Assembly (NCBI RefSeq): GCF_007744075.1
Contig: NZ_CP036266.1
Location: forward strand, 2,713,748 to 2,777,747
Length of the DNA stretch: 64,000 nt
Reading direction: 5' to 3'
DNA from: Gimesia chilikensis
GTDB lineage: Bacteria > Planctomycetota > Planctomycetia > Planctomycetales > Planctomycetaceae
Made by a program: the position numbers and the translations under genes. Positions 14,737 to 64,000 of this stretch are shown here, one piece after another. Under the pieces are notes generated by a model that ran no database searches, was not told the origin of the DNA, and worked only from the letters and a program-made list of their open reading frames with translations. Position 1 is the stretch's first letter; each line of letters starts with the position of its first letter.

Positions 14737-15133
14737 GTGCAGTCTCCACAGGGGGTTAGGTGTTGTTATGCACTTGGTCTTGCTCTGTGAACTATACGAA
14801 ATTCGTTGATTTTAGCCAGACGTAGATATTACAAATCCCCCAGACTTGGCACATTGGTTGCAATTCTGTATGACGAATCCTTTCTTTTATTCGAAGTAAA
14901 CCGCTGGTCAGAAGGCGAGACCGCCATTGACCATATTTTTCAAAATAAATAAACTTCGGAAAGAGAAGAACTTACAAAAATTAAATGTCTTCTGGACCGT
15001 CGACGGTAGGAGACCTCGCTCTATTTACGTCGGGCGGGGTGAGAATGGGCTCCCTGCCAGTATGACAGTGAGCTCTGACTGCCCGGAAGCAGCAATCGTC
15101 TAAATTTTAGAGAATTCGAGTTCGGGTTACATA
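14737..15133. other. Divergent region and long structured leader before secA
   Basis: It holds a sigma54 promoter (14847-14862) and about 260 nt of predicted secA leader. An 11-nt perfect inverted repeat, ACGAA-A-TTCGT, lies at 14796-14806. The leader has several hairpins between about 15030 and 15115, including CTGC-CCGGAA-GCAG, and a 13-nt palindrome TCTAAATTTTAGA. A 26-codon open frame lies at 14985-15065. Confidence 0.6.
14847..14862 (+). promoter_or_regulatory. Sigma54 (-24/-12) promoter upstream of secA
   Basis: TTGGCAC-ATTGG-TTGCA matches the sigma54 consensus TGGCAC-N5-TTGC exactly. The GG (14848-14849) and GC (14860-14861) are separated by the required 10 bp. The predicted transcription start is near 14873, about 260 nt before the secA ATG. 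No other plus-strand gene lies between. Confidence 0.75.
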
Positions 15134-32144: not shown

Positions 32145-35069
32145 TTACTGCTCGCTCAGTTGATTAATGGAGTCCTGGACACTCTGTAACTGTTTCTGCA
32201 GTCCGGCCAGCGTTTCTTTAACCCCTTCCACAACATCGGCAGGGGCGCGATCGACAAAGTTCTTGTTGGCCAGTTTCTTTTCGCTGCCTTCAATGTGCTT
32301 TTGCAGTTTTTCTGCTTCGGCTTGCAGTCGGGCGAGTTCCGCATCCAGATCGATAATGCCTTTCAAGGCAATGAAACCATCCACCTCATTGAGGGAGAAT
32401 GTCGCTGAACCGCCCGGTCGCTGCACGTCGGCTCCTGCTGATTCCAGCAGTGTTTTCGCCAGGTTATCGAACTGGCTGGCTACGTTCTGCATGTCATCTG
32501 CAATCCCGGCTTCACAACGCAGGAAGAGTTTCAGAGGAGTGGCCGGGGAAATTTTGTAAACTGCCCGAATATTGCGGACCGCAACGATCATTTCCTGCAG
32601 ACGCTCAAACCGTTTTTCCAGCTGAGAATCCTGCCAGCTCTGTGGTGGTTCGGGCCAGGCAGCTATCATGACGCTCTCGACAGCCGGTTCTGGTGTGAAC
32701 AGTCCCCTCTCGGGAGCAATTTCATTCAGACGCTGCCAGAGCTCTTCTGTAACGAAGGGCACAAATGGCTGCAGGAGTCGCAGCAGATTGTCCAGTACAC
32801 CCACCAGCACGCGTTGAGCGACCGGTTTGAGAGTTTCATCCCGCAGTCGCGGTTTGATCATTTCCAGGTACCAGTCACAGAATTCGTTCCAGGTGAAATC
32901 CCGAATGGCGCGCGTCGCGACATCGAACTGGTAGCGTCCCAGAACGGTCGTCACTTCTTCAGCCACGGTCGACAGTCGGCTCAGGATCCAGCGATCTTCC
33001 ATCGTCAGGTCGTCTTCATCGACCACTCCGGGCGTATAGCCTTCCAGGTTCAGCATCGCGAACCGGCAGGCATTCCAGAGCTTGTTACAGAAGTTGCGGC
33101 CGTATTCAAAGCGTTCACTGACAATACGCGCCACTTTTTCGCCCGGATCGGGATCAAACCAGGGGCTCGTATACTGATACGACTTACCACTCTTGGGGAA
33201 CTTGATTCGCGGCTTCTCGCCACCTGCGGGGATGGCGGTCTGGTGTTCCAGAGTTTGCGGTACCACTTCGCCGGTCTCCGGATCCTCATAACCGACGGGC
33301 AGACGGACGTCCTGTGTTTCCCCGGCGAAAGAGGAGATTGTAAACCGAACGGCATCGACGCCGTATTTGTCGATGAGATCCATCGGATCCACGCCGTTAC
33401 CTTTGGATTTGGACATGGTCTGTCCGAAACCATCGAGAATTTTTGGATGGATGCAGACGTGCTTGAATGGGATATCGCCCATGTTATACAGGCCGGTGAG
33501 TACCATGCGTGCTACCCAGAGCGTGATGATATCGCGGCTGGTAACCAGTACGCTGCCCGGATAGAAGTAATCGAGGTCAGGATTTTTTTCGGGCCAGCCC
33601 AGGGTTGCGTGTGGCCAGAGGGCACTGCTGAACCAGGTATCCAGTACGTCATCGTCCTGTGTCAGCTGATGGGCAGCACCCAGTTCGTCACCATTCAGAT
33701 CAGTTTCAGAGCAGATCAGCCAGCAGGTATCTTCATCATCCCGGCGGAAGCTGACATCATAACGATCGCCGAAGGCCTGGTTCAGCTCTTCTTCCGTGCA
33801 TGTTTCACAGTACCAGATCGGGATGCGATGTCCCCACCAGAGCTGGCGACTGATACACCAGTCCCGTTTTTCTTTCAGCCAGTCGAGATACGTTTTGGAA
33901 TAGCGACTGGGGAAGAAGCGGACGCGTCCATCGTCGACTGCATCAATGGCGGACTGGGCCAGTGTATCCATTTTTACGAACCACTGATCGGAGAGGTACG
34001 GTTCAATTGGAGTCTTGGAACGATCGCTGTGCTTGACTGGAATCTTACGGTCTTCAACTTCAATGAAGAAGCCCTGCTGGTCCATGTCTTCAACAACTTT
34101 TTTACGGACCTCATAGCGATCCAGGCCCTCGTATTCACCGGCGGCTTCGTTCATTGTGCCGTCAGGATTGAGGATGTTGATCTGTTCCAGATCGTTCCGC
34201 AGACCGCAGGCATAGTCGTTCGGGTCGTGAGCCGGTGTGACTTTTACGGCACCGGTCCCCAGATCTTTATCTGCCAGAAGTGCATCGGCGATGATGGGGA
34301 TTTCACGTCCGTTCAGAGGGATGCGGACTTTCTTTCCAACCAGGTGCGTATATCGTTCATCGGAGGGATGCACGCAGACCGCCGTGTCTCCCAGCATGGT
34401 TTCAGGACGTGTGGTGGAGAACGAAATCCGTTCGTCGCTGTCTACCACCGGGTATTGAAAGGTCCAGAATTTCCCGTCGATGTCTTCGGAAAAGACTTCG
34501 TCATCTGCTACTGCTGTTTGCAGGAAAGGGTCCCAGTTCACGAGCCGCTTGCCGCGATAAATCAGCCCATCCGAAAAGAGCTTCAGAAATGTGCGTCTGA
34601 CAGCTTTGGAACACATTTCATCCAGTGTGAAGCGGGTGCGTTCCCAGTCGCAGCTGGCACCCAGTTTGCGCAGCTGATTCAGGATCCGCTTTTCGTACTG
34701 GTCTTTCCATTTCCAGATCCGTTCGATGAGAGCGTCTCGGCCGATGTCATGGCGGGTCAGGTTTTCCTCTTCCTTCATCCGGCGTTCGACCACTGCCTGG
34801 GTGGCGATGCCGGCATGGTCGGTTCCGGGCATCCAGAGTGCCTCGTAGCCCTGCATCCGCCGCCAGCGGGTGATCAGGTCCTGTAGCGTACCGTTGAGCG
34901 CGTGTCCCATGTGCAGAGCCCCGGTCACGTTCGGCAGGGGAATCATAATGGTATGCTGCTCTTTTTCCGGGTTGGGCTCGGCATGGAAATAGCCTTTTTC
35001 CTCCCAGAAGGGGTACCATTTCTGTTGTGCACTCTCAGGATTGTAATGTTTCTCAAGCGATTCGGTCAT
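32145..35069 (-). CDS. valS: Valyl-tRNA synthetase
   Basis: A 974-residue class I synthetase that charges tRNA-Val. The HIGH-type motif is in LPNVTGALHMGHALN (about 45-59) and the KMSKS-type motif is TMSKSKGNGVDP. The editing domain lies between them, and a C-terminal coiled coil (AELARLQAEAEKLQKHIEGS) is typical of ValS. The length is near the usual range. The opposite strand has a 690-codon open frame that I regard as a shadow. Confidence 0.98.
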   Translation of the reverse strand: MTESLEKHYNPESAQQKWYPFWEEKGYFHAEPNPEKEQHTIMIPLPNVTGALHMGHALNGTLQDLITRWRRMQGYEALWMPGTDHAGIATQAVVERRMKEEENLTRHDIGRDALIERIWKWKDQYEKRILNQLRKLGASCDWERTRFTLDEMCSKAVRRTFLKLFSDGLIYRGKRLVNWDPFLQTAVADDEVFSEDIDGKFWTFQYPVVDSDERISFSTTRPETMLGDTAVCVHPSDERYTHLVGKKVRIPLNGREIPIIADALLADKDLGTGAVKVTPAHDPNDYACGLRNDLEQINILNPDGTMNEAAGEYEGLDRYEVRKKVVEDMDQQGFFIEVEDRKIPVKHSDRSKTPIEPYLSDQWFVKMDTLAQSAIDAVDDGRVRFFPSRYSKTYLDWLKEKRDWCISRQLWWGHRIPIWYCETCTEEELNQAFGDRYDVSFRRDDEDTCWLICSETDLNGDELGAAHQLTQDDDVLDTWFSSALWPHATLGWPEKNPDLDYFYPGSVLVTSRDIITLWVARMVLTGLYNMGDIPFKHVCIHPKILDGFGQTMSKSKGNGVDPMDLIDKYGVDAVRFTISSFAGETQDVRLPVGYEDPETGEVVPQTLEHQTAIPAGGEKPRIKFPKSGKSYQYTSPWFDPDPGEKVARIVSERFEYGRNFCNKLWNACRFAMLNLEGYTPGVVDEDDLTMEDRWILSRLSTVAEEVTTVLGRYQFDVATRAIRDFTWNEFCDWYLEMIKPRLRDETLKPVAQRVLVGVLDNLLRLLQPFVPFVTEELWQRLNEIAPERGLFTPEPAVESVMIAAWPEPPQSWQDSQLEKRFERLQEMIVAVRNIRAVYKISPATPLKLFLRCEAGIADDMQNVASQFDNLAKTLLESAGADVQRPGGSATFSLNEVDGFIALKGIIDLDAELARLQAEAEKLQKHIEGSEKKLANKNFVDRAPADVVEGVKETLAGLQKQLQSVQDSINQLSEQ

Positions 35070-46276: not shown

Positions 46277-46492
46277 GCCTTCCTTGAAAAGACTATCTAA
46301 GGATTTGTAAAATAATCAGTTAGATAGATCGAGGCAGGCACACGTGAAGGACGTTTTGTCCATTGCTTGAGCAGAGGACAGAGTAGTCTTCAATTGTTCT
46401 AGTTTGTACCGCCGTATCTGGGGACTGTCAAGCGGTTGGGCCTTGCGTGTGAACTGTTTAGCCCGTATTTCAGCGGTCCGGCATCAGAGACT

Positions 46493-46511
46493 GCCAAAAT
46501 GTCATTTTGGC
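46493..46511. promoter_or_regulatory. 19-nt inverted repeat, candidate enhancer site for dnaK
   Basis: GCCAAAATG-T-CATTTTGGC is a perfect 9-bp inverted repeat around one base. It lies about 170 bp upstream of the predicted sigma54 start (46674), the usual place for an enhancer-binding protein. Confidence 0.5.
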
Positions 46512-46647
46512 TGTGGCGGGCTTGACTCGGGGGTGGTGTCAATATGGCAGTGTTGCTGCCTGTCTGCTAGATTTTCAGTAAGTGTGACGTCCTGTAAGGT
46601 TATTCATATAAATATCTTACGTTAAACGCTCTTTGTCGGGGATCTGT

Positions 46648-46663
46648 TGGCACGGTCCTTGCA
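46648..46663 (+). promoter_or_regulatory. Sigma54 (-24/-12) promoter upstream of dnaK
   Basis: TTGGCAC-GGTCC-TTGCA matches TGGCAC-N5-TTGC exactly. GG (46649-46650) and GC (46661-46662) are 10 bp apart as required. The predicted start is near 46674, 135 nt before the dnaK ATG. A site of this length is rarely found by chance. Confidence 0.78.
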
Positions 46664-46808: not shown

Positions 46809-48719
46809 ATGTCGTCTCAAGGTGAAAAAATCATCGGAATCGATTTGGGAACCACCAACTCAGTGGTTTCAGTAATGGAGGGCGGGGAAGCCAAAGTGAT
46901 CCCGAACCTCGAAGGGAACCGGATTACTCCCAGTGTTGTTGCTTTCACCGATAAAGGCGAGACACTGGTCGGCGAACCAGCCAAACGTCAGGCTGTGACC
47001 AACCCCAAGAACACCGTTTACTCAGTAAAACGGTTTATGGGACGTCGTCACAACGAAGTTCAGAACGAAGAAAAGATCGTGCCTTACACGATCGTTGGTG
47101 GTCCGGAAGACTATGTGAAAATTGAAGCGGGCAGCAAGACTCTCACACCTCCCGAAATTTCCGCATCAATTCTGCGGAAACTGAAGGAAGCTGCTGAAAG
47201 CTACCTGGGACACAAAGTCAATAAGGCTGTTGTGACCGTGCCGGCTTACTTTAACGACGCACAGCGTCAGGCAACCAAAGACGCTGGTCAGATTTCAGGT
47301 CTGGAAGTATCGCGTATTATCAACGAGCCGACCGCAGCTGCTCTGGCTTACGGTCTGGAAAAGAAGAATGATGAAAAGATCGTCGTCTTCGACTTCGGTG
47401 GTGGTACGTTTGACGTTTCCGTTCTGGAAGTCGGTGACGAAGTGATCGAAACCCTGAGCACCAACGGCGATGGTCACCTGGGTGGTGACGACTTCGACGA
47501 AGAACTGATCAACTACATTGCTGATCAGTTTAAGAAAGATCAGGGAATTGACCTCCGCAGTGATCCAATGGCGTTGCAGCGTCTGCGTGAAGCAGCTGAA
47601 AAAGCGAAGAAAGAGCTGTCATCTTCTCAGACGACCGACATCAACCTGCCGTTCATCACAGCCGACAGCAGTGGTGCGAAGCACCTGCAGCTGGCGATTA
47701 CTCGTGCGGAATTCGAAAAACTGATCGATCCACTGGTCGAGCGGTGCCGCAATCCGGTCGAGCAGGCGTTGAAAGACGCCGGACTGGATCCGAGTGCCAT
47801 CGATGAAGTGGTACTGGTTGGTGGTTCCACACGTGTTCCCAAGGTTCAGGAATTCGTTAAGAAGATCTTTGGCAAAGAGCCTCACAAGGGTGTGAATCCC
47901 GATGAAGTGGTTTCAATTGGAGCCGCGATTCAAGGGGGGATCATTGCCGGTGATGTACAGGACGTTGTTCTGCTGGACGTGACACCGCTGTCGCTCGGTA
48001 TCGAAACCGAAGGGGGCGTCATGACCAAACTCGTCGAACGTAACACAACAATTCCGGTTACCAAGGATCAGGTCTTCTCGACTGCTGCCGATAACCAGAC
48101 TGCTGTGACTGTTCGGGTGTTCCAGGGAGAACGCCAGATGGCCAACGATAACCGGCTGCTGGGTCAGTTTAATCTGGAAGAACTTCCTCCGGCTCCGCGT
48201 GGGGTACCGCAGATCAAAGTGGTCTTCGATATCGATGTTAACGGGATCTTGAATGTTTCCGCTAAGGATGTGGCGACCGGAAAAGAGACCTCAGTTCGGA
48301 TCGAGCAGTCCAGCGGGCTGTCGGAAACCGAAATTGAAGATATGAAAAAGCAGGCGGAAGCACACGCCGATGAAGACAAGAAGAAGAAGGAACTGGCCGA
48401 GGCCAAGAACAATGGAACTCGTCTGGTTTACGAAGTCGAGAAGCTGCTCAAAGAGCATGCTGAGAAAATCGATGATTCTTCGAAGTCTGCCATCGAAGCT
48501 TCTGTGAAGAAGGTGAATGATGCTGTCGAGAAAGAAGATGTGGCAGCCATCAATTCCGCCTGTGAAGAATTGCAGCAGGCAACTCACGCCTTTACCGAGC
48601 AGATGTATAAAGCCAGCGAAGCCGCTGGTGGCGAAGGGGCTGCTCCCGAAGGTGGTGAGAGCTCGGCTGCTGCAGAAGACGAAGATGTAATCGATGCAGA
48701 ATTCGAAAAGAAGGACTGA
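46809..48719 (+). CDS. dnaK: Chaperone DnaK (Hsp70)
   Basis: A 636-residue Hsp70 that binds exposed hydrophobic segments in an ATP-controlled cycle. It has [19 protein letters not shown] at the N-terminus, [32 protein letters not shown], and the [19 protein letters not shown] start of the substrate domain. The C-terminal lid ends in an acidic tail ([14 protein letters not shown]). AGGGG lies about 8 nt before the ATG. dnaJ and grpE are not adjacent; clpB, with which DnaK works in disaggregation, follows. Confidence 0.98.
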
Positions 48720-48995: not shown

Positions 48996-51611
48996 ATGGC
49001 ATTTCGATTTGAAAAATTGACTGTGAAGGCCCAGGAGGCAGTGCAACGAGCCCAGCAGACCGCAGAAGATTTCGGCCAGCAGGAAATCAAGCCACTGCAC
49101 CTGTTGAAGGCATTACTCGATGAAGAGCAGGGAGTAGTCAAACCTCTGATTCAGAAGATTGGGGCGAATCTGTCTCAGCTCCAGAAAATGGTGGATGATG
49201 AGATCAGTCGTCTGCCGAAAGTTTCGGGGGCAGCGATGCAGGTTGGCATCGGTCAGTCGCTGCTCAAGGTTTTGCAGGCAGCGCAGGATCGTGCTGATCA
49301 GATGCAGGATGATTTCGTTTCGACAGAGCATCTGCTGCTGGCATTCACCACGGTCGATGACCAGCCGAAACGTCTGCTGGAGCTCAACGGGATCGAAGAA
49401 GATGACGTACTGTCGGCGCTCAAAGCGGTGCGGGGCGGTCAGCGGGTGACGGACCAGAGTCCGGAAGAGAAGTACCAGTCCTTGCAGCAGTACGGGAAGG
49501 ATCTGGTCGAACTCGCGCGTCAGGGCAAGATTGATCCGGTGATCGGTCGCGACCAGGAAATCCGCCGTGTGGTACAGATTCTCTCCCGTCGTCGTAAAAA
49601 TAATCCGGTGTTGATCGGGGAAGCGGGCGTCGGTAAGACGGCGATCGTGGAAGGTCTGGCGCATCGGATCGTAATGGGCGATGTGCCTCAGAACCTCAAG
49701 AACAAACGCGTTATCGCCCTGGATATGGGGGCATTGATCGCGGGGACCAAGTATCGCGGTGAGTTTGAAGATCGGCTGAAGGCGGTTCTCAAAGAAATTG
49801 AGTCTGCCAAGGGGGAGATCATTCTGTTTATCGACGAGTTGCACACCGTTGTCGGAGCTGGGGCTGCAGAAGGGGGCGCGGATGCGTCGAACCTGTTGAA
49901 GCCGGCTCTGGCACGCGGGGAGCTGCATTGCGTTGGTGCAACAACCCTTGATGAATACCGCAAATACATCGAAAAGGATCCGGCCCTGGAACGCCGTTTC
50001 CAGCCGGTGATGGTTCAGGAACCAACGGTCGAAGATACGATTTCCATTCTGCGGGGATTGAAGGAACGCTACGAAACACACCATGGCGTGCGGATCATGG
50101 ACGATGCCTTGATCAACGCTGCGACGTTGTCTGATCGTTACATCAACGACCGGTTTCTGCCGGACAAGGCGATCGACCTGGTCGATGAGGCAGCCAGTCA
50201 GTTGCGTATGGAGATGGACTCCATGCCGTCTGAAATTGATGAGGCGACCCGACAACTGACCCGGATGCAGATCGAAGCGGCTGCACTGGCTGGAGAAGAT
50301 TCACCGGAAAGCCAGGAACGTCTGGCCGAACTGCGTAAGCACATCGCCGATCGGGAAGAGAGTGTCAATGCGCTGAAGACCCGCTGGGAAACGGAAAAAG
50401 AAGCCCTGGCCGGACTGCAGCCCTTGAAGGAGGAAATTGATCGGTTGAATACCGCTTATGAGCAGGCTTTCCACCGCGCACAGCAGACAAATTCCAATGA
50501 AGACTATGCCCAGGCTTACAACGCCGAACAGGAGTTGAATGCGGCCCGGCAGCGTCTGACGGAGATGGAAGCGCGTGTCGCGGAACTGGGAGATGACGCC
50601 GGTGAGCGGCTTCTGCGTGAAGAGGTGACTTCGGAAGACATTGCCAAGGTCATCAGCATGTGGACCGGAATTCCGGTATCGAAGATGCTGCAAGGCGAAC
50701 GCGATAAGCTGCTGAGGATGGAAGATGAAATTCATAAACGGATGATTAACCAGAGTGAAGCAGTTGAAGCGGTTTCTAACGCGGTTCGTCGTTCGCGATC
50801 TGGTCTGCAGGATCAGAATCGTCCCATCGGTTCGTTCATGTTCCTGGGGCCTACCGGCGTCGGGAAAACGGAGCTTTGCAAGGCATTGGCCAGTTTTCTG
50901 TTTGACGATGAACGCAGTATGATCCGTATCGACATGAGTGAATTCATGGAGAAGCATTCTGTGGCTCGTCTGATTGGTGCCCCTCCGGGGTATGTCGGAT
51001 ACGAAGAAGGGGGACGGTTGACCGAGGCGGTCAGGCGGCAGCCTTATTCGGTGGTCCTGCTGGACGAGGTTGAAAAGGCACACCGGGATGTATTTAACAT
51101 ACTCCTGCAGTTGCTGGACGACGGTCGTCTGACGGATAGCCACGGGCGGACTGTTGATTTCTCAAACACGATTGTGGTGATGACTTCCAACATCGGCAGC
51201 CAGACAATTATGGATTTGTCAGGCAAGGAAGATGAGGAGCTGATTCATAATCGTGTGATGGATGCCCTGCAGCATGAGTTTCTGCCTGAGTTCCTCAACC
51301 GGATCGATGAGGTGATCGTATTTCATCCGCTGGGGAGAGAGGAGATCCGCCAGATCGTGGATCTGCAGCTCAAGCATCTCTCCCGCCTGGTGGAAGCCAA
51401 CGGTTATACGCTGGAAGTCTCAACGGAAGCGAAGGATCTGCTGGCGGAAGAAGGGTATGATCCTGTGTATGGTGCTCGACCTTTGAAGCGGACAATTCAA
51501 CAGCACATCCAGAATGAGCTGGCGAACAAGTTGCTCTCCGGCGATTTTACGGAGGGGGCGACGATTTATGTCGACGCCCACGAAGGGCTGTTTCTGTTCT
51601 CAGAACGATGA
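48996..51611 (+). CDS. clpB: Disaggregase ClpB (Hsp104 family)
   Basis: An 871-residue AAA+ disaggregase that pulls proteins out of aggregates together with DnaK. It has the double Clp N-domain (about 1-145), the first AAA+ module with Walker A GEAGVGKT at 208-215, the ClpB-specific coiled-coil middle domain (about 400-520), and the second module with GPTGVGKTE at 618-626 and [13 protein letters not shown]. The middle domain separates it from ClpA and ClpC. A strong terminator follows. Confidence 0.97.
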
Positions 51612-63009: not shown

Positions 63010-64000
63010 ATGGAAGACGATCGCCCTATTTTAGAAGATATGGTGGGGTACAGCCCTGCGATGCGTAACGTCTATCGTCTAACGCGTCGAGCAGCTGCTA
63101 CTTCATCGACGGTCTTACTGACTGGAGAAACCGGCACCGGTAAAGAGCTGATTGCCCGTGGTATCCACGAACTCAGTCCGCGCGCTACGGGTCCTTTTAT
63201 CCGTGTGAACTGCGGTGCTCTGAGTGAAAGCCTGCTGGAAAGTGAACTGTTTGGCCACATCAAAGGGGCATTCACCAGCGCTGTTGAGAATCGTACAGGA
63301 CGTTTCGAAGCGGCCCACGGAGGAACTATCTTCCTGGACGAGATTAACTCCGTCAGTTTTACGCTACAGGTGAAGCTGCTGCGTGTTCTACAGGAGCATG
63401 AATTTGAACGTGTCGGTGACACGCGATCGATCTCTGTCGACTGTCGCATTGTCGCGGCTACCAACCGTAATCTGCTGGATGAAATCGAAGCAGGGCGGTT
63501 CCGGGAAGACCTGTATTATCGATTGAACGTGATTCCCATCGATTTGCCTCCACTGCGCGAACGTTCTGAGGATATTCCAGATCTGGTGCACTTTTTTGCG
63601 AAGCAGTTCTCTGCAGAAGAAAAGATTCCTCTGCCGAATTTCTCGAGCGAGGTGTTGAACACATTCAAGAACTACAGCTGGCCGGGCAACGTTCGCGAAC
63701 TGCAGAACTATGTTGAACGTCTGATCGTACTCTCTGGTGAAGATGGTCCTTCGCTGGATTTACTGCCGGGGCATGTGACCGGTCGTTCCGCTCCACGTGC
63801 TGTCTCTGCCCGCGCACAGGATCCAGAGACGATCTGTCGTGATCTGGTTTCCATGGAGTTGCAGCGGGTGGGGGAGGATTCCACCGATGTGCATACTCAG
63901 GTTGTATCGCTCGTGGAAAAAGAAGTGATTTTGCAGGTTTTAAGGTCCTGCCAGGGTGTCCAGACCAAGACGGCCACCCGGCTGGGGATCAATCGCAATA
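63010..64000 (+). CDS. Sigma54 enhancer-binding protein without receiver domain (partial)
   Basis: An open frame from the ATG at 63010 to the window end, 330 residues so far. The AAA+ sigma54-activator domain starts at about residue 12: Walker A GETGTGKE (39-46), the sigma54-contacting loop GAFTSA (86-91, usually GAFTGA), Walker B GGTIFLDE (104-111), and [16 protein letters not shown] Fis-type helix-turn-helix begins at the edge ([12 protein letters not shown]). An in-frame stop 22 nt upstream rules out a receiver domain, so it resembles PspF in layout. Control must come from a partner protein or expression level. Shine-Dalgarno is weak. Confidence 0.9.

Follow-up and report, generated by a model that had tools for sequence, protein, structure and literature searches.

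It is quite probable, in our judgment, that the secA gene of Gimesia chilikensis is served by two promoters, of which the upstream one (P1) would be driven by an enhancer-binding protein (EBP) acting through a dyad-symmetric site that is shared with groEL and dnaK, with joint induction of the three under stress as the expected outcome. The sequence elements concerned, their conservation, their co-occurrence, and their spacing are direct observations in the genomes compared (Table 1). Positions refer to the window, that is, the whole stretch of 64,000 nucleotides that was analyzed.

Table 1. Features of the secA and dnaK loci and the candidate activator gene, in window positions
Feature	Position	Strand	Basis or remark
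Sigma54 (RpoN) promoter P1, TGGCAC-ATTGG-TTGCA, TGGCACATTGGTTGCA	14847..14862	+	Zero mismatches to consensus; genus-identical; family enrichment
Sigma70-type promoter P2, TTGACC-N17-TAAACT	14927..14955	+	Consensus scan; family conservation
Dyad CTGCCAGTATGACAG, core TGYCA-N3-TGRCA at 15055-15067	15054..15068	+	Putative EBP site; ~190 bp downstream of P1, in leader
secA, 1178 aa	15134..18670	+	Protein search: full-length SecA relatives, best in Planctomycetota
First dnaK enhancer dyad (predicted), CTGCCAAAATGTCAT	46491..46505	+	Partner of second dyad at the common 45-bp spacing
Second dnaK enhancer dyad (predicted), GTGTCAATATGGCAG	46536..46550	+	112 bp upstream of -24 element
dnaK sigma54 promoter, TGGCACGGTCCTTGCA	46648..46663	+	Zero mismatches
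dnaK (HSP70)	46809..48719	+	Pfam HSP70, E=1e-256
clpB, ClpB-type AAA+	48996-51611		Follows dnaK
Candidate activator, short EBP, 346 aa (C1:2776757-2777794)	63010..64000, past window end	+	PF00158 + HTH_8

A predicted sigma54 promoter upstream of secA

A 397-bp gap precedes secA, with a divergent molybdopterin-domain oxidoreductase gene on its other flank. P1 lies in this gap on the secA strand and, in its 17-nt form (TTGGCAC-ATTGG-TTGCA, TTGGCACATTGGTTGCA, 14846-14862), shows the GG at -24, the GC at -12, and the fixed spacing of the sigma54 pattern TGGCAC-N5-TTGCW. RpoN itself is represented in the genome by one Sigma54_DBD hit (E=4.7e-61). Only two sites in the window matched TGGCAC-N5-TTGCA with zero mismatches, namely, P1 and the site upstream of dnaK. 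Looser matches, with up to two mismatches, were found 19 times against 20.3 expected; as this is chance level, we give weight to exact matches alone within the window. Across the 8.29-Mb genome, the exact TGGCAC-N5-TTGCW pattern occurred 11 times, compared with a single occurrence of a reversed control pattern.

The P1 16-mer was identical in all six genomes of the genus and was always located 286 to 288 bp before the secA ATG. For the family, 90 genomes in which the secA start had been located were scanned over up to 700 bp of upstream sequence. A site with no more than one mismatch was present on the forward strand in 19/90 genomes and on the reverse strand in 1/90; allowing two mismatches, these counts became 34/90 and 6/90, and 21 of the 51 sampled genera carried such a site before secA. 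A sequence-only reading of this DNA had proposed a sigma54 element upstream of secA of the same form as that of dnaK, and the exact match, its identity throughout the genus, and the forward-strand enrichment across the family bear this out. The same reading had looked to relatives for conservation of the element, which proved to hold in the whole genus and in the 21 family genera just mentioned, with the element absent outside the family. Among class members belonging to other families (40 genomes), secA was preceded by the sigma54 site and by the dyad described below at background levels only, the sigma54 site with at most one mismatch occurring in 1/40 (0.4 expected). Because secA regions outside the family are at background level, the secA elements appear to be a lineage-specific addition.

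The frequency of loose matches in the window, no higher than expected, could be taken to mean that the site before secA is itself a chance match. We regard this as extremely improbable, since it is contradicted by the conservation of the site, with the strand bias, the co-occurrence with the dyad across genera, and the background-level result in the 40 out-of-family regions (a negative control) also standing against it. A different fate befell the perfect palindrome ACGAA-A-TTCGT (ACGAAATTCGT, 14796-14806), to which the sequence-only reading had also drawn attention: it is present, yet the window holds 92 perfect 5-1-5 palindromes, a chance-level number, and this one is unconserved even in the genus alignment. 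It was therefore rejected as a regulatory part.

Other sigma54-like sites were noted in passing. A one-mismatch site at 34655-34670, inside a large minus-strand open reading frame (32145-35069), is probably due to chance. Among the exact sites elsewhere in the genome, those of L082, L086, L090, and L092 precede genes whose translations, judged by eye, resemble DUF1559-type pseudopilin-like proteins, and those of L083 and L088 each precede a paralogous permease-like gene, the two genes being very similar in sequence. The exact site of L089 lies at the end of an EBP gene, just before the next gene, and resembles an RtcR-type arrangement.

A probable second promoter inside the secA leader

Sigma54 geometry predicts a P1 start at about 14873. 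Within the leader that this start implies, the genus alignment revealed a strongly conserved block, CATTGACC...AATAAACTTCGG, that fits a sigma70 promoter. The hexamers of this promoter, P2, match the sigma70 consensus (TTGACA-N16..18-TATAAT-like) at 9 of 12 positions, and its predicted start at ~14962 would give a leader of ~170 nt. The pattern TTGACC-N16..19-TANANT was present in 68/87 secA upstream regions of the family, and P2 was found in 24 of 26 genomes examined among those bearing both the sigma54 site and the dyad (3.0 expected). P2 is thus kept more widely in the family than P1. Given a conserved sigma70-type promoter within the P1 leader, secA most likely has two starts and, as far as sequence comparison can tell, is most likely transcribed from tandem promoters, P1 of the sigma54 type and P2 of the sigma70 type.

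According to the sequence-only reading, a single sigma54 promoter drives secA from a start near 14873 with one leader of about 260 nt. Its arithmetic is right, and the perfect, genus-conserved -24/-12 element speaks in its favor. However, a sole start with one long leader is an incomplete account of a region that holds a more widely conserved sigma70-type promoter, and exclusive dependence on an activator fits poorly with SecA, which is essential in bacteria generally. We consider a single promoter very unlikely. Beside P2, a short element (approximately TTACG, window positions 14970-14976) was observed at a fixed distance of 14 to 16 nt past the -10 hexamer in many leaders of the family; TT[AG][CT]G occurred at that spacing in 39/68 leaders, compared with 8.8 in shuffled sequence.

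Alternatively, the leader may have been conserved for translational control, either through a SecM-like arrest peptide or through a structured RNA that senses the secretion state. The fold of the window leader is somewhat more stable than those of its shuffled versions (z=-2.6, a value that means little for a single-sequence fold alone), and GAACTT near the P2 start could pair with GAGTTC near the ATG. Against this, no conserved upstream open reading frame or arrest peptide was found in the six genus genomes, the consensus fold was weak (-6.6 kcal/mol) and lacked covariation support (covariation term, +0.14), no riboswitch or other known leader RNA in Rfam matched above threshold, and the dyad does not pair as RNA in many genomes. 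Translational control of this kind is accordingly given very little credence here. The Escherichia coli secM-secA arrangement resembles the present one in placing a long regulatory leader before secA and differs from it in that no conserved arrest-peptide open reading frame is found here, where regulation appears to be transcriptional. In the same leader, all the genus genomes share an unchanged GAGAATTCGAGTTC at 15110-15123, ahead of the secA ATG; base pairing between it and GAACTT (14969-14974) is conceivable, although the alignment gave it no covariation support.

A dyad common to secA, dnaK, and groEL

The other conserved block of the leader in the genus alignment was ACTGCCAGTATGACAGT. 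The dyad CTGNCA-N3-TGNCAG was first noticed in this alignment and at dnaK in the window and was counted afterwards, so that the counts for the genus and for the window dnaK are not independent of its definition, whereas those for the rest of the family and for groEL are. Mismatch cutoffs were set by us, and chance expectations were derived from first-order Markov sequences built for each region. Among the secA regions of the family, the dyad was exact in 16/87 (0.08 expected from shuffled sequence) and present with at most one mismatch in 39/87 (1.9 expected). Its core, TGYCA-N3-TGRCA, occurs only twice in the window, at secA (15055) and at dnaK (46537). The genome holds 12 exact dyads, with secA accounting for one and groEL loci for two; as the control gave a similar number, 9, the exact dyad alone has no genome-wide predictive value.

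The dyad could in principle act as a hairpin in RNA. We rejected this reading in view of its symmetric positions 4 and 12, which are most often C and A (14/39), a combination that would not pair in RNA. Together with the location of the dyad upstream of the predicted groEL and dnaK starts, these nonpairing positions led us to read it as a DNA site.

At dnaK, a sigma54 site with at most two mismatches was found in 26 of 30 family regions (2.3 expected), and a dyad within the same limit was found in all 30 (7 expected). The dnaK dyads mostly occur in two copies, ~111 and ~156 bp upstream of the sigma54 site, and their commonest spacing of 45 bp is kept across many genera. At groEL, 19/22 loci in the family had the dyad (0.23 expected), in most cases with a sigma54 site ~90 bp farther downstream; outside the family, it was present in 20/29 loci (0.35 expected). 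Unlike secA, then, groEL keeps both the sigma54 site and the dyad beyond the family, and both groEL loci of the present genome carry the pair. A dyad-symmetric site is common to the sigma54 promoters of secA, dnaK, and groEL, as would be expected of members of one regulon, and the behavior of the dyad at the three genes is best read as that of the enhancer of one EBP. The sequence-only reading had placed secA and dnaK in one sigma54-linked folding and export response; this proposal gains support in that both genes, and the groEL loci with them, share a sigma54 site and the dyad.

A putative enhancer downstream of P1

The sigma54 site and the dyad were found together before secA in 28/87 family genomes, a significant association (p=1.4e-8). 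Since genomes of the same genus are not independent, the test was also made at the genus level, which corrects for this in part only; 17/51 genera had both elements (p=3.5e-5). By these criteria, 42/87 genomes and 24/51 genera had neither element, and the arrangement is frequent in the family without being universal. In a further 11 genomes, the dyad was present but no sigma54 site was found within two mismatches; several of these had a three-mismatch candidate at similar spacing.

EBP sites usually lie upstream of the promoter, at ~80-200 bp, which is where the dyad is found at dnaK and groEL but not at secA. In 25 of the 28 genomes with both elements, the secA dyad lies downstream of P1, at 130-207 bp in 23 of them and at +317 and +461 in the other two. 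The exceptions are genus g34 (genomes G033 and G074), in which the dyad occupies the usual enhancer position 104 bp upstream of P1, and genome G005, in which a dyad at -299 relative to P1 is probably due to chance. The ability of the dyad to occupy either side of P1 fits an enhancer that acts by looping. Among sigma54 enhancers in nature, those lying past the transcription start are, to our knowledge, uncommon, a point that counts against the present model. They are said to include the sites of FlrC at Vibrio cholerae flaA and of FleQ at Pseudomonas aeruginosa flagellar genes, and relocated glnAp2 enhancers reportedly work from downstream as well. The likeness to these systems is an activator bound downstream and acting on sigma54-RNA polymerase, which is predicted in the present case. 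The difference is that they concern flagellar or nitrogen genes, whereas here the gene encodes an export ATPase and the enhancer is separated from the sigma54 site by a housekeeping promoter.

The position of the dyad can also be understood in another way, namely, as an operator at which some other regulator represses P2 or blocks its elongation, with the sigma54 site being independent and served by a different, unseen enhancer. The dyad lies ~90 nt past the predicted P2 start, a location from which a bound protein could stop the elongating polymerase, and P2 is present in most dyad-bearing genomes. This reading leaves unexplained, however, that the dyad is found upstream of the groEL and dnaK sigma54 promoters at fixed, enhancer-like distances, that the secA dyad co-occurs with the sigma54 site, and that one genus has it in the upstream enhancer position. 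We think an operator of this kind unlikely and favor an enhancer for P1.

A candidate activator

The genome has 26 PF00158 hits, of which about 19 are strong, as its complement of EBPs. Conservation does not suffice to single out one of them, with L228, L231, L232, L235, and L236 being common to the four genera compared. The flanks examined around secA, dnaK, and groEL contained no EBP gene, and no convincing intergenic dyad was found near the EBP genes among the EBP loci scanned. One short EBP, whose gene begins at 63010, consists of an AAA+ domain and a Fis-type helix-turn-helix (HTH) domain without an N-terminal sensor domain. It has an orthologue in 51/51 genomes of the class, with a clear identity gap to paralogues in nearly all of them, and its recognition helix, LGINRNTLHKK, is near-invariant. 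In its distribution, this EBP follows the groEL dyad more closely than the secA dyad, a pattern that a later entry of secA would produce. We put this protein forward as a candidate only, and the link between it and the dyad is a guess.

Relation to known heat shock systems

Sigma54 promoters have been predicted for the GroEL/GroES, DnaK, DnaJ, GrpE, and small heat shock protein genes of Planctomycetia (PMC12316311, 2025). The main text of that paper contains none of the terms secA, COG0653, translocase, or upstream activating. A sigma54 chaperone regulon had already been predicted; the membership of secA and the shared dyad are the additions made here. A literature search for the dyad spelled in IUPAC form found no paper, which is weak evidence of novelty given that spellings vary and journal coverage is partial.

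Rhodopirellula baltica presumably belongs to another family than the window organism. Its heat shock response includes induction of secA (RB11690) together with dnaK, groEL, and clpB, while the section considered here reports no regulation of rpoH, rpoE, and rpoN and proposes no shared promoter element (PMC2754498). Such co-induction of secA and the chaperones supports the physiological logic of the present model without directly supporting its mechanism. Since secA regions outside the family lack both elements (40 genomes), heat induction of R. baltica secA presumably proceeds by another route.

Proposed mechanism

An updated view of secA regulation in the family can be put forward, in which binding of an EBP to the dyad, the driving of P1 from it, and the inducing signal are what we infer. 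P2 would be the ancestral housekeeping promoter of secA, and P1 would stay inactive until the RpoN holoenzyme is remodeled by an EBP through its AAA+ ATPase activity. One EBP is hypothesized to bind TGYCA-N3-TGRCA at groEL, dnaK, and secA; at secA, where the dyad lies ~190 bp downstream of P1, it would act through DNA looping. Proteotoxic stress of the heat type would then raise GroEL, DnaK, and SecA together, and secA would have joined a pre-existing chaperone regulon governed by one activator. On this view, the cell would raise its capacities for protein export and folding in concert.

A broader version of this model is more speculative, and we rate it as possible but rather doubtful. Throughout the class Planctomycetia, one EBP, possibly the sensorless AAA+-HTH protein described above, might run the sigma54 heat shock response via TGYCA-N3-TGRCA, and one family might have recruited secA with an enhancer placed downstream of P1, in the leader past P2, such that a bound EBP could switch P1 on and at the same time hinder P2.

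In sum, the regulatory model is made testable by the dyad that groEL, dnaK, and secA have in common, by the definition of P2, and by the candidate EBP. If an EBP acts at the dyad, this would account for a chaperone heat response driven by a sigma factor that itself stays constant. If true, an enhancer fixed downstream of a sigma54 promoter at an essential gene in many genera would provide an uncommon natural test case.
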